A stretch of DNA of 58,242 bases from Lolliginicoccus lacisalsi (GTDB lineage: Bacteria > Actinomycetota > Actinomycetes > Mycobacteriales > Mycobacteriaceae), in NCBI RefSeq assembly GCF_014841105.1, contig NZ_JACYWE010000001.1:325064-383305 (forward strand), given 5' to 3'. The notes beneath the pieces are model-generated. The model was not told the DNA's origin. It worked only from the letters and a program-made list of their open reading frames with translations, and did no database searches. Of this stretch, positions 19,589 through 52,817 are shown in pieces. The translations under genes and the position numbers were made by a program. The first letter of the stretch is position 1, and every line of letters starts with the position of its first letter.

Positions 19589-20647
19589 TCAGCGTGCCCG
19601 GGGCAACGATTCCGGCGTGATCTCGAACCGGGTGACACCGTTGTCCGCCATGCTCAGTACGGTCGCGATGGCCCCGCGGCCGGGAGGCAGCACGCGCGCC
19701 GTCACCGTCGTTCCCGGCCCCGCGTGGACCAGCGCGCCGCGCAGCGCCTCGCTGATCGCGTGCACGGCTGATGCTCGCTCCTCCTGCGCGAGGTGGTCGA
19801 GGCCGCCATCGTCGAGCAGGATGACTGTCGCGCCCCGGGCCCGGGCATCCCGAGCGGCCGCGAGGACCTCCTCGGTCGCCAGCGACCTGGCCCGGATGCG
19901 GTCGCGGAGCTGGGCCTCCACCGAGGAGATCCGGGCGAGATCGCTGGCAGAGATCTCGTCGGCGCGCACGATCGCCTCGAGCAGGGGCCGCGCGGTCGCG
20001 TTGAGGAACACGAGCTGGCGATCACGCTCGGCGACCCGCGCTGCCGCGCCCGATCGGTCGGCTTCCACCGAGGCAGCGGTATCGCGCAACTCGTTGATGA
20101 CACTGACCTGTCGGCGCAGCGTGATGCCCAGGATGGTGCAGGTGCCGATCATGCTGAGGTTCCAGGACAGCTCCTGCCACGGATCGGCGATGTCCGACGG
20201 CACGGGGCCAGCGGCGAACCACCAGCCGAGGATGGTCGCCGAGAGCAGCGCCTCGCCCGCCCAGGCGGCGAGCGTCCGGCCGCGCAGGACCAGGAAGGAC
20301 AGGATGATCGTGCCCGTCGGCCAGGTCCACGAGGCGTAGAGCGCCACGCGGTCCGGAGCGCCGATCATCGCGACGTTCGCGAGCGCCGCCAGACCAGGCA
20401 GCACCGCGATCGCGGCGGTCGCCCGGGCCGGCAGCGGGTCGCCGGGCGCGCGGAGGAGCAGCAAGGTCGCGGCGCCGATCAGCAGCACCGAGGCCAGCCA
20501 CCAGGCGGGGCCGCGTTCCCACGTGCCCGTCGTCCACGCCCGCGCGCACTCGGCGATCGTCCATGCCGCGGCGATGGCGAGCGCCGGCCCGCTGCGCAGC
20601 CCGATCATCCGGGGCGTGTCGGTGCGGCCGCTAGTCCCCTCAGTCAT
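19589..20647 (-). CDS. Membrane pseudokinase paralogue B (kinase-like, catalytic residues lost)
   Basis: This 352-residue protein has about five or six membrane segments (residues about 15-185), a helical region, and a C-terminal region collinear with the ATPase domain of the neighbouring kinase. Where that kinase has EAARNSIRHAG (N-box), this protein has [11 protein letters not shown], so the Mg-binding Asn is gone. No phospho-acceptor His is seen at the helical position ([12 protein letters not shown]). A motif [12 protein letters not shown]...VILLDDGGL is shared with the paralogue at 21821-22867. Its start overlaps the kinase gene by 8 bases. It likely partners or regulates that kinase, which is inference. 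Confidence 0.7.
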
Positions 20648-21830
20648 CGTTGCCGCTCCAGGTCACTGTGACGGTGGTGCCCTCGCCGGGCGCGCTGTCG
20701 ATCTCGAGCCCAGCACCCTCGATGAGCGCGACGCGTCCCCGCATCGCGGTGTGGATCCCGAGCCTGCGCGGCGGGACGCGCGCGGGGTCGAAGCCCCTGC
20801 CGTTGTCGGCGAGCATCGCGAAGATCGAGCCGGAGCCACATCGCACCAGCAAGCCGCGGCGCGCATCCTGCCCCGCATGGCGGATGCTGTTGCGGGCAGC
20901 TTCGGCGATCACTTCCTGGAGCATCCGCACTACCTCGAGCGGATAGGTGGCGCCAACGTCGTCGACGCTGGCGTGGAACGCGAAGTCCTCGCGGACATCA
21001 CCGACGATCTGGCGCAGCCGAGCGATTGCCTCGCGAGCGATGACGGGCTCGGTGTCGCTGTCGCTGCGCGCGAGGGAGTCGAGCGTCTCGAGGCTGCCGA
21101 GCGCCGATTCGCGGACCTTGTGCGCGGGCGCCCCGGTGCATGCCGCCACGAAGGTCGAGACGATCGTGTCGTGCACGAGCGCGTCGAGCCTGTCGCGCTC
21201 CTGGTTGATGGCCGTCTCGCGGACCCGCTCGCCCGCCCTGGCGCGCAGCACCTCGGACTCGGAATCGATGAGTGCGGCATTCGCTTGCACGCTTCGGATC
21301 ATCGCCGCGAAGATGACGCCGATCATGGCGATGGAGATGCCCTCGCGGATGGCCCAGTCCACGGGCACCCCATCCTGGGCCCAGTAGGTGTCGATCGCGT
21401 GCAGCGCGGCATAGATGACCGCGATCGGGACGAGCCTTCGCAGCGGCAGCACGAACGACGCGGTGATGATCGTCCCGGACCCGATGAGCAAGGGCCAGGG
21501 CATCGTGATGGGCGGGAGCTGGTGCGGCTCGAATGCCAGCGGGAGCGCGGCGATGACGGGGATGTACAGGACCGGATACGTGCCGCAGATGAGGCGGACG
21601 GCGCGAGCACTGCCCCACACCGAGGCGATGATCATCGCGGCATACATCCCCGGTATCGCGATGATCGCGGGAAGCAGCCACCACCATGGGTTTCCCGCCA
21701 TCTGCTCGAGAATTGCGGGGAACTCGATGCCCAGGAACGCGGCCCCAGCGAATCCCAGGGCAAAACCGAGGACGCGGGTCATGCGTCCTGACGCGGTGTC
21801 CTCGCGAGCCATGAGCCTCGCTAGTGGCAT
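20640..21830 (-). CDS. Sensor histidine kinase B
   Basis: This 396-residue membrane histidine kinase has an N-terminal multi-helix membrane domain (about 20-185) and a dimerisation helix with the acceptor motif DALVHDTIVS (His about residue 219). The HATPase domain has N-box EAARNSIRHAG, G1 DNGRGFD and G2 GEGTTV. The HATPase is compact and ends at the C-terminus, as in NarL-partner kinases. The start at 21830 is chosen for a GGAGGGG site 6 bases upstream and a 10-base overlap with the preceding gene. No response regulator with a receiver domain is encoded nearby. Confidence 0.87.
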   Translation of the reverse strand: MPLARLMAREDTASGRMTRVLGFALGFAGAAFLGIEFPAILEQMAGNPWWWLLPAIIAIPGMYAAMIIASVWGSARAVRLICGTYPVLYIPVIAALPLAFEPHQLPPITMPWPLLIGSGTIITASFVLPLRRLVPIAVIYAALHAIDTYWAQDGVPVDWAIREGISIAMIGVIFAAMIRSVQANAALIDSESEVLRARAGERVRETAINQERDRLDALVHDTIVSTFVAACTGAPAHKVRESALGSLETLDSLARSDSDTEPVIAREAIARLRQIVGDVREDFAFHASVDDVGATYPLEVVRMLQEVIAEAARNSIRHAGQDARRGLLVRCGSGSIFAMLADNGRGFDPARVPPRRLGIHTAMRGRVALIEGAGLEIDSAPGEGTTVTVTWSGNDD

Positions 21831-22867
21831 GCGGGCCCCTCCGACTCCTCGTCGATCTGGATGGGTGTTCCCTGGCGCACGGTGACGCGGCGCGCCCCGT
21901 CGGGGGAGCTCGCGACGATCGAGCACGCGTGCTCGCGCCCCGGAGGCACTACCCGTACGGTCACGGTACCGTTCCCTTGCTCATCGAGCACGCGCGCGAC
22001 CAGCGCGTCCACCGCATCCTTGGTTTCGCTGCGCGCGCCCGACAAGCCCCCATCATCGAGCAGCACGACATCGATGCCCCGGCGCCGAGCACGGGTGGCC
22101 GCGTCGAGCACGCGCTCGGTGGCCAGGACCCGCGCCCGCATACGGTCCCGCAGTCCGGCCTCGATGAGGAGCAGTTCCGAGCGCTCCCGCGCATCCAGCG
22201 GACCGCCTCCAGCGATGCGCTCGAGGCCAGGGATAGCGCTCTGCCGCAGCTCGGTGACCAATGCGGCGGACTCGCGCTCGCGGGCTGCCACCGCCGCCCG
22301 CTCCACGAGGAGGGACTCGCCTGCCGCGCGCAGCGTCGTGGCCCTGCGGCTCTGCGCCCGCAGCATCAGCGCGCAGCCGAGACCGATGGCGAAGAGGCAC
22401 GAGGTCCAGATCAGCTTGGGCACTATGCTGTCCTGCCAGCCCGGGCCCGCCGCGACGGGCATGAGGGCATGCGTCGCCGACACCATGACGTGCCCGGTGA
22501 TGGCGGTCGCGGTGCGTCCCCGCAGGGCCAGCACCGCCATCATCGCCGCGATCACTACCCACGCCCATCGCGGCTGGCTGGGTTGCATCTCGATCACCCA
22601 GCCCTCCGCGATCGCGACGATCATGGCCAGTCCCACCACCAGCCATGCACGTCGTGCGCGGATCGGCTCGCTCCGCCCGCTGACGGCGAGGATCGCCAGT
22701 GCCAACGTCGCCGGGCCGATGACCAGCGCTCCGATCGCCCCGAGCCACGTGTGGTTGGCGATCACTGCCCCGCTGGTCCCCACCACCACCCAGGCCGTGA
22801 CGACGCCGATCGCTCCCCTAGTGCCGAGCCCCGCGATCGCCGCGGCGGACACGTCGTCGTTCCTCAT
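21821..22867 (-). CDS. Membrane pseudokinase paralogue A
   Basis: This 348-residue paralogue of the product of 19589-20647 has the same layout: about five membrane segments, a helical linker, and LRDRMRARVLAT...VVLLDDGGL. The C-terminus, VTVRVVPPGR, matches [10 protein letters not shown] in the other copy. It lacks the acceptor His, N-box and G-boxes entirely; the expected ATP-binding part is reduced to DALVARVLDEQGNG. Its ATG overlaps the stop of kinase A as ATGA. Two copies of the same kinase-then-pseudokinase order argue for co-function. Confidence 0.7.
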   Translation of the reverse strand: MRNDDVSAAAIAGLGTRGAIGVVTAWVVVGTSGAVIANHTWLGAIGALVIGPATLALAILAVSGRSEPIRARRAWLVVGLAMIVAIAEGWVIEMQPSQPRWAWVVIAAMMAVLALRGRTATAITGHVMVSATHALMPVAAGPGWQDSIVPKLIWTSCLFAIGLGCALMLRAQSRRATTLRAAGESLLVERAAVAARERESAALVTELRQSAIPGLERIAGGGPLDARERSELLLIEAGLRDRMRARVLATERVLDAATRARRRGIDVVLLDDGGLSGARSETKDAVDALVARVLDEQGNGTVTVRVVPPGREHACSIVASSPDGARRVTVRQGTPIQIDEESEGPACH

Positions 22868-24000
22868 GAGGCCTGCCAGCCGATCCGCACGGTGGTCCCC
22901 CGGCCTGGCATCGACTCGACCTCGGCGAGCCCGCCCGGCAGGTGCCGCATCCTTTCCTTGATCGACAGGGCGATGCCGATGCGCCTCGACGAGACCTTTC
23001 GTGGATCGAACCCGGCCCCGTCGTCGATGACACTGATCGCGATCCGCCCCGCGGCCACGTGCCCACGGATGCAGCGAGAAACGTGCCCGGGGCCGGCGTG
23101 GCGCAGCGAGTTCGCTACCGCCTCGCCGACGGCCGCCTGGACCGCGCGGACTGCCACGGCGGGGACGGGCAGCTCACCGACCGCGATGACATCCTGGGTG
23201 AAGCCGCATCGCTCGGCGTGGCCGGGCACGATCATTGCTGCGGCGACGCGCGGGGCAAGGGTGCTCGCGCCGTCCTCGTCGCGATGCTGGAGGCCGCGGA
23301 TCGCGCGCAACCCTTCGCGGGCAGCCTTGACGGCCTCCTCGTCGGCGTGCCCCTGGCCCGCTAGGAGCAGGGCCGAGAGAACCGAGTCATGGACGAGAGC
23401 GTCCCCCCGCGCGCGCTCCTCGCTGCTCGCCCGCTCCGCCGCGACGCTCGCGGATTCCGCCCAGATCACCGCTGTCTCCCGATCGACCAGCGCTGCCCCG
23501 TTGCGCAGCGCGACCACGGCGACGACGAGAATGACGACAAGGGCCAGGGAACCGGAGATCTCCTCGCTGAGCAACCGTGCCCACAGCCCCCCGGTCGCCC
23601 AGCTCATCTGCGCCACGACCAGGCCCATCATTGCCCCCAAGTGGATCCAGGCGACCCTGCGGGAGGAGACCGCGGCGGCCACCGATGCCACTGCGCCACA
23701 GACGGCACTGGTCCAGGGCCAGCCTCCCCAGTCCAGGCTGCCCCGGGGATACGCGGCGAAACCGGACAGGACGATGAGGGCGTACAGCACGACGTAGGTG
23801 CTGCCCGCGCGGCACACCCCGCGCAACGGGGCCAGCGCCCCCGCCACTACCGTGAGCATGGCAGCGGCAGCGAGTGCCGCAGCGCCGGCGAACGACCATG
23901 CCGGCGAGGCGATGGCCGCTTGTTCACGGACCGCGGGAAGTGCCGCGAGGATGAAGACAACACCGGCGATCCCCGCCATGATCGCCACGAGCCGGATCAC
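22864..24000 (-). CDS. Sensor histidine kinase A
   Basis: This 378-residue membrane histidine kinase has an N-terminal membrane domain of about five helices and the acceptor motif DALVHDSVLS (His about residue 203). The HATPase has GEAVANSLRHAG, DDGAGFD and GRGTTV. Residues are intact, so it should autophosphorylate. The GTG at 24000 is preceded by GAGGAG at good spacing; an ATG at 23979 is an alternative. The much longer frame upstream is antisense-like shadow of the HAD gene. It is the first gene of the four-gene operon. Confidence 0.86.
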   Translation of the reverse strand: MIRLVAIMAGIAGVVFILAALPAVREQAAIASPAWSFAGAAALAAAAMLTVVAGALAPLRGVCRAGSTYVVLYALIVLSGFAAYPRGSLDWGGWPWTSAVCGAVASVAAAVSSRRVAWIHLGAMMGLVVAQMSWATGGLWARLLSEEISGSLALVVILVVAVVALRNGAALVDRETAVIWAESASVAAERASSEERARGDALVHDSVLSALLLAGQGHADEEAVKAAREGLRAIRGLQHRDEDGASTLAPRVAAAMIVPGHAERCGFTQDVIAVGELPVPAVAVRAVQAAVGEAVANSLRHAGPGHVSRCIRGHVAAGRIAISVIDDGAGFDPRKVSSRRIGIALSIKERMRHLPGGLAEVESMPGRGTTVRIGWQAS

Positions 24001-52520: not shown

Positions 52521-52817
52521 ATGATGAGCCTCACCACGCTTCCCCCGACCCCGTCCCGCGGCAGCGATGATGAGGACAGGGGCTCGCGGCCGCGGCCCGG
52601 CTTGTCCCAGCGCGAGGAGGAAGTCCTCGTTGCCTGGATCAAGGCCGACACCAAGGAAGAAGTATCCCGGGAGCTCAAGGTCGCGATCGGCACGATCAAC
52701 ACCTACCTCGCGCGGATCCGGGCCAAGTACGCCGCCGTCGGTCGTCCAGCGAGCACCAAGGCAGCGCTCGTCGCCCGCGTGCTGCAGGACGGCATCATCG
52801 ACCTCGACGACTTGTGA
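52521..52817 (+). CDS. LuxR/NarL-type DNA-binding protein without receiver
   Basis: This 98-residue protein is only a GerE-type helix-turn-helix: LSQREEEVLVAWIKADTKEE, VAIGTINTYLARIRAKYAAV and GRPASTKAALVARVLQDGI. This resembles the output domain of NarL-type response regulators of corynebacteria and relatives, as I recall them. The phospho-receiver domain is absent; the first 28 residues are an unrelated Pro/Ser/Asp-rich stretch. The start at 52521 has GGAAAGG upstream. A small ORF overlaps its stop as GTGA. Confidence 0.85.
   Translation: MMSLTTLPPTPSRGSDDEDRGSRPRPGLSQREEEVLVAWIKADTKEEVSRELKVAIGTINTYLARIRAKYAAVGRPASTKAALVARVLQDGIIDLDDL

Follow-up and report, generated by a model that had tools for sequence, protein, structure and literature searches.

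Sensor histidine kinases (HKs) are textbook homodimers. Heterodimers of two sensor kinases have been called rarely reported (PMC12675982). In a locus of Lolliginicoccus lacisalsi, two kinase genes alternate with two genes for putative pseudokinases. The locus lies in a window (the whole stretch of DNA analysed) of 58,242 nucleotides. Hereafter, K denotes the kinases, P their pseudokinase partners, R an atypical LuxR-type response regulator and h a LuxR-type protein made of a helix-turn-helix (HTH) part only. We consider it probable that each K-P pair is an asymmetric kinase/pseudokinase membrane receptor that signals to R in trans.

In the FasBCA 'three-component' system of Streptococcus pyogenes, heterodimerization was detected by two-hybrid assay, and one partner was proposed to be a pseudokinase (PMC12675982). 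FasBCA resembles K-P in having two adjacent HK-like proteins with 6 transmembrane (TM) segments, dimerization/histidine phosphotransfer (DHp) and HATPase regions, and one response regulator. However, the His there belongs to FasC, the proposed pseudokinase, and the active kinase domain to the other partner, whereas here both reside in K; P has neither, is truncated, bears invariant motifs of its own and comes from another phylum. A linked regulator of the FasBC type is seen in 121 of 163 related pairs, where R lies next to K, but not at the window locus. In Corynebacterium glutamicum, the native ChrS/HrrS pair heterodimerizes in two-hybrid assays, and an HK defective in its catalytic and ATP-binding (CA) domain modulates signalling of the paralogous kinase (PMC9491836). 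That variant is a laboratory-evolved frameshift which, according to its authors, has not been described naturally in corynebacteria, whereas P is an old, widespread and linked gene. In Streptomyces coelicolor, also an actinobacterium, the genes of AbrC1/C2/C3, a pair of HKs with a single response regulator, lie together; both kinases are described as HKs, and the word 'pseudokinase' is absent from that paper (PMC9739842). In Caulobacter, the inactive HK-type protein DivL sets the kinase/phosphatase state of the real kinase CckA (PMC12189002, PMC9491836), as would P for K. DivL (4q20) was the top Foldseek match of the partner partB, at E 0.05 only, and differs from P in architecture. To our knowledge, DivL and CckA show no operon pairing or fusion of the K-P kind. 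Collectively, FasBC, ChrS/HrrS and DivL/CckA indicate that an inactive HK-type protein can team up with, or direct, a genuine kinase; what sets the K-P family apart from all three is consistent linkage, wide distribution and occasional fusion, together with a partner that appears to lack both the His and the ATP site. Within the parts of the open-access literature consulted, the family has apparently not been described before.

The original prediction, made from sequence alone, described four overlapping genes in the order kinase A, pseudokinase A, kinase B, pseudokinase B. Order, strand and coordinates were all confirmed:

22864..24000, minus strand: kinA, multi-TM sensor histidine kinase, 378 aa, GTG start at 24000, H204, N297, DDGAGFD, HATPase_c
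21821..22867, minus strand: partA, pseudo-histidine-kinase partner of kinA, 348 aa, ATG at 22867, Arg at the His position
20640..21830, minus strand: kinB, multi-TM sensor histidine kinase, 396 aa, ATG at 21830, H220, N314, DNGRGFD
19589..20647, minus strand: partB, pseudo-histidine-kinase partner of kinB, 352 aa, ATG at 20647, N216 at the His position

The overlaps are 4 nt (kinA/partA), 10 nt (partA/kinB) and 8 nt (kinB/partB), and the GTG start of kinA is ATG at the same place in two sister species. The locus is flanked by HAD hydrolase and metH genes on one side and hisE and hisG on the other (names assigned by eye, HAD excepted). Consistent with the paired duplication proposed originally, BLAST matched kinA with kinB (30% identity, E 2e-36) and partA with partB (36% identity, E 2e-27); it gave no match between kinase and partner at this locus. 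Judged from the partner tree described below, the A/B duplication is old, its copies forming separate subclades of one 15-row clade.

Both kinases retain the acceptor His (VHDS and VHDT), the N-box and the G-boxes, as had been read from the sequence, the N-box Asn being N297 in kinA and N314 in kinB. The acceptor codons are:

23389..23391, minus strand: phospho-acceptor His204 of kinA (VHDS)
21171..21173, minus strand: phospho-acceptor His220 of kinB (VHDT)

HATPase_c matched kinA at E 3.1e-9 (37.7 bits, over the cut-off of 26.4) and kinB at E 1.3e-5 (26.0 bits, just under it). For conservation counts, rows with less than 85% profile coverage and identical rows were dropped, reducing K from 177 to 166 and P from 175 to 163; the counts thus exclude the pieces L052 and L140 and, at L068, the first-unit partner, which is broken. 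Across the 166 kinases, the His is kept in 160, the N-box Asn in 164 and the G1 Asp in all. By sequence, then, K has the hallmarks of a sensor histidine kinase: HATPase_c with N and G1 boxes, and an acceptor His in the DHp helix. Two narrower assignments were rejected. HisKA_3 (PF07730) gave no match to K at E up to 10, and K was not among its 6 matches in the L. lacisalsi genome, although the H-box style is similar; the MacS family (NF047322) scored 52.5 and 34.6 bits against an equivalog cut-off of 300 bits. In Cryobacterium (L178, L209, L225), an extra K-like protein with Gln or Asn for His is encoded ~2 kb upstream of R and a fused K-P gene, and is perhaps a second kind of pseudokinase.

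The partners, by contrast with K, have lost these elements, as the original prediction held for the His and the N-box Asn. Profile searches of partA and partB against Pfam and NCBIfam returned nothing of note (best chance-level matches E 0.0097 and above), and when 91 partner sequences were searched, weak matches arose to 46 families, the 25 listed of which include none of the HATPase kind. A partner alignment omitted 1 of 92 rows (L099) for its long N-terminus. However, profile comparison and the AlphaFold2 (AF2) model of partB (predicted local distance difference test, pLDDT, 93.3; CA fold at residues 253–346) identify P as a degenerate histidine kinase, homologous to histidine kinases over DHp and CA. 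No His occurs at the acceptor position in any of the 163 non-redundant partners, which have Asp (129), Asn (16), Ala (10), Glu (4), Gly (2) or Arg (2); partA has Arg, its two sister orthologues Glu, and partB Asn. An intact ATP site in the partners, named beforehand as the observation that would speak against the idea, was not found: there is no conserved N-box Asn, and the models lack the segment that holds the ATP lid, G2, one helix and one strand. On alignments and models together, P is a putative pseudo-histidine kinase, with homology over DHp/CA and loss of the His and of ATP-binding elements.

What P has lost is accompanied by residues of its own. The near-invariant, P-specific motifs are LRD..RA, ARxRG, LLDD and RxLPPGR. 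In partB numbering, R248, D249, R269, R318 and P321 are kept in 163/163 partners, R252, R271, G272 and R324 in 162, and D279 and D280 in 160 and 158, respectively. The LRDRxRAR and LLDDGG(L) motifs noted originally as shared are present in both window partners, together with RV(L/V)PPGR:

19886..19909, minus strand: partB LRDRIRAR (R248, D249, R252), near-invariant, at the end of the second DHp-like helix
19802..19819, minus strand: partB LLDDGG (D279, D280)
19676..19696, minus strand: partB RVLPPGR hairpin (R318, P321, R324)
22130..22153, minus strand: partA LRDRMRAR
22046..22063, minus strand: partA LLDDGG
21935..21955, minus strand: partA RVVPPGR

These residues bear on the simplest alternative, that K and P are plain duplicates of a kinase, one of them in decay, paired without function. 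Such decay could account for the absence of the His and of the ATP-lid/G2 segment, and broken or partial P pieces occur in three loci. However, P is not decaying, because its own residues are near-invariant over 163 sequences; it is conserved over many genera with signs of purifying selection, always adjoins K in the full-length cases and co-occurs with R. We regard decay as scarcely credible.

The pairing itself is invariant. All 163 non-redundant full-length partners are directly preceded by K, 151 as adjacent genes and 12 within one open reading frame (K=P); the loci were picked for holding P, and these linkage counts are not unbiased frequencies. Unlinked genes in relatives, the other observation named in advance as adverse, were therefore not seen among full-length partners. 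On a quick maximum-likelihood tree of the 163 partners, whose long branches leave inner details unsure, the fusions need at least three changes: in a Cryobacterium group, in one Nocardia transvalensis row and in the 15-row clade (SH-aLRT 99), to which both window partners, their orthologues from Lolliginicoccus and Hoyosella, and six fusions belong. One of these six belongs to L. lacisalsi itself (contig C3, locus L045, 752 aa), giving this genome three K-P units: A, B and the C3 fusion. Tandem arrangement of K-P units thus recurs: 15 of the 163 pairs stand second in an array, separated from the first unit by h in 11 cases and without h in 4. Among the latter are the window B pair and its two orthologues in Lolliginicoccus, all three following a first unit that has no R. 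Partner genes that are C-terminal pieces or split over two frames (L052:6045-6377, L140:6930-7214, L068:4212-5191) are perhaps remnants of lost K-P units. Class-wide, at E up to 1e-10 and with at most 5 candidates scored per genome, P occurs in at least 35 of 394 genomes and at least 14 of 138 genera. tblastn also found P on 12 plasmid records of Rhodococcus, Gordonia and Pseudarthrobacter. Three of the plasmid regions (NZ_CP054209, NZ_CP126457, NZ_CP047900) all read R-K-P by annotation, R being called a LuxR-type or sigma-like HTH protein and the others 'ATP-binding protein' and 'hypothetical protein'.

The proposal that kinase and pseudokinase act as a heteromeric sensor is supported by this linkage, by the natural fusions and by a confident single-chain model. 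The AlphaFold model of the K=P fusion is predicted to pack both halves confidently (predicted template modelling score, pTM, 0.77). Its alignment combined 12 fusions with 40 of 87 K rows; P-only rows were left out because MAFFT set K rows on the P half in a mixed alignment. Together, the fusions and the pTM suggest a physical heterodimer. We thus grade K-P as well supported as a paired module and as moderately supported as a physical heterodimer. Alternatively, P could be an accessory membrane regulator that docks on a K homodimer, as LiaF does on LiaS, with K an ordinary homodimeric kinase. The conserved residues particular to P would suit such a regulator, as would the P-less K homologues on contigs C10 and C7 of the same genome. 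Against this, P is a full-length homologue of K with a DHp-like hairpin and a CA fold, the 12 fusions among the 163 cases impose a 1:1 ratio, and the two halves are predicted to pack in one chain; we judge docking on a K homodimer unlikely.

Where, then, does the signal go? The original prediction stated that the window encodes no receiver protein, and none of the 19 receiver-domain matches in the genome falls there. Its description of the operon as lacking a response regulator stands for the locus but not for the genome, which keeps an orphan R on contig C14. The survey for a co-occurring regulator that it recommended found R, which lies beside the pair in most relatives, where loci read R-K-P. 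R is immediately upstream in the 121 pairs mentioned above, 112 directly, 3 with h between and 6 before a fusion. Among 201 genomes of the family (thresholds E 1e-3 for P and 1e-20 for R), P was found in 104 and R in 101: both in 101, P only in 3, R only in 0 and neither in 97, a co-occurrence that relatedness inflates. In the P-only genomes (G034, G081, G087), P scored at E 2e-12 to 5e-4. The receiver residues of R, with roles assigned by position, are kept almost throughout 55 rows (acidic pair 54 and 54, phospho-Asp 54, Thr 54, Lys 55).

Synteny connects the orphan R with this arrangement. In Hoyosella rhizosphaerae, H. altamirensis, G051 and G026, a syntenic block holds R-K-P-h facing the gene L134, flanked (names by eye) by rplI, ssb and rpsF on one side and by glycosyltransferase and penicillin-binding protein genes on the other. 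On C14 of L. lacisalsi, R faces L134 with ~40 bp between the 3' ends, and K-P-h is absent; Lolliginicoccus levis and L. suaedae have R and L134 arranged in the same way, with no P there. Loss of K-P-h at C14 is likelier than gain because R-K-P is the common state, and we infer that it was lost beside R. The genome has one close R, the next match (C10) being 35% identical and with its own kinase. R has outlived its C14 neighbours, and the genome carries three K-P units at other sites; convergence on R is the simplest reading, with pairs A and B and the C3 fusion probably all converging on the C14 R. In H. rhizosphaerae, the B-pair orthologue lies ~6 kb from R. An h orthologue also stands alone in the window:

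52521..52817, plus strand: h, HTH-only LuxR-type protein, 98 aa, GerE 2.1e-7, associated with the locus by homology only, 28 kb away

Its product is 59–62% identical to that of the h gene following R-K-P in four Hoyosella-type loci. It sits between a gene for an ABC-type ATPase and meaB/methylmalonyl-CoA mutase, and is conserved in three Lolliginicoccus genomes, each time ~30 kb from K-P-K-P. The facing gene L134 (L135:5659-6288, G000 contig C14) encodes an HTH protein (Sigma70_r4_2/GerE) that faces R in both Hoyosella and Lolliginicoccus; no Pfam receiver model matches its N-terminal part. No conserved target gene was found beside R-K-P, whose neighbours vary by genus (by eye, dapA/dapB-like in Nocardia, rpsF/ssb-like in Hoyosella, hisG/metH here).

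A further possibility concerns what P does to R. In HisKA_3 kinases, a Gln five residues after the His is needed for phosphatase activity. At this position, the 159 paired kinases have Ser (130), Ala (25) or Thr (4), never Gln. Given that K has no such Gln for dephosphorylation, P might be a new functional domain that acts mainly on phospho-R, for example as a phosphatase or sequestering factor, with its Arg/Asp residues as a ligand or phosphate site. The five residues found in every partner fit this idea. However, they may equally form an interface, the P fold matches a CA domain, and we know of no catalytic signature for such Arg/Asp residues; we hold an action of P mainly on phospho-R to be very unlikely.

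We therefore return to the asymmetric receptor. In this model, each gene pair would encode one membrane receptor consisting of an active multi-TM K and an obligate P, alike in layout: a 6-TM bundle, a long signalling helix, a DHp-like hairpin and a CA fold, truncated in P. The two would join through membrane bundles and helices as a heterodimer, or possibly K2P2, with ATP binding and the His belonging to K only. P would sense or relay a signal and set the kinase state of K, in whichever direction, through its conserved Arg/Asp cluster, and phosphate would pass from K to R. In L. lacisalsi, that R would be the C14 orphan, which held its place as K-P-h vanished beside it. That K-P-R answers a signal and governs a regulon, we infer.

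Several observations weigh against this model. The window locus has no linked R; 27 of the 163 pairs have none detected immediately upstream, including cases where the contig ends (L159) or the gene model splits K (L151, L183, L220), and only L059 in the window's 15-row clade has one. The stretches preceding kinA, the fusion, R, h and L134 yielded no inverted repeat in common. In a covariation analysis (mean-field direct coupling, 159 of 163 pairs, effective sequence number 81), K and P gave hub-like noise with no helix pattern. The fusion alignment had only 12 true K=P rows, and the pTM of its model bears on packing rather than on a defined interface. The truncated ChrS pseudokinase itself gave no two-hybrid heterodimer signal (PMC9491836). 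Partial P pieces at L052 and L140 have no K in the sequence stretch retrieved. At L080, L143 and L144, where an extra K-P unit lies upstream of another, Arg replaces the kinase acceptor His while the N-box Asn and G1 Asp remain; such kinases could only phosphorylate another chain. Finally, the genome holds K homologues without P, on C10 (with its own response regulator) and C7, and K-type kinases can thus work without P. These are L136:6292-7560 (with L136:7624-8280) and L137:7025-8335, one of them divergent to a response regulator 35% identical to R.

The fusion model also shows a weak similarity of shape to transmembrane adenylyl cyclases (AC5/AC8/AC9 and Cya; PMC9433096, PMC4821796). The sequence link is very weak (E 0.0097), and no adenylyl cyclase was among the matches listed for the partB model alone; the likeness rests on the fusion model. 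Membership was rejected, the fusion matching no cyclase family and the catalytic region of K being HATPase_c. The relation is at most one of shared arrangement. With this in mind, we advance as a tentative possibility a wider claim: that K-P represents a class of histidine-kinase receptors that is widespread, as yet undescribed and obligately asymmetric, with a catalytic and a dead subunit in an adenylyl-cyclase-like 12-TM assembly of two 6-TM halves, an invariant signalling site in P, a dedicated atypical LuxR-type R and an HTH-only satellite.

In one large actinobacterial family, then, a putatively dead partner is encoded with a live kinase, and sometimes fused to it, in 104 of 201 sampled genomes, and a matching regulator for these pairs can now be named. 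The fusions offer a ready 1:1 construct for probing the effect of a pseudokinase on a kinase, and allow one to ask whether autophosphorylation runs in cis with a single His. If the wider claim is true, the family would parallel, among histidine kinases, the membrane adenylyl cyclases with their two dissimilar halves.

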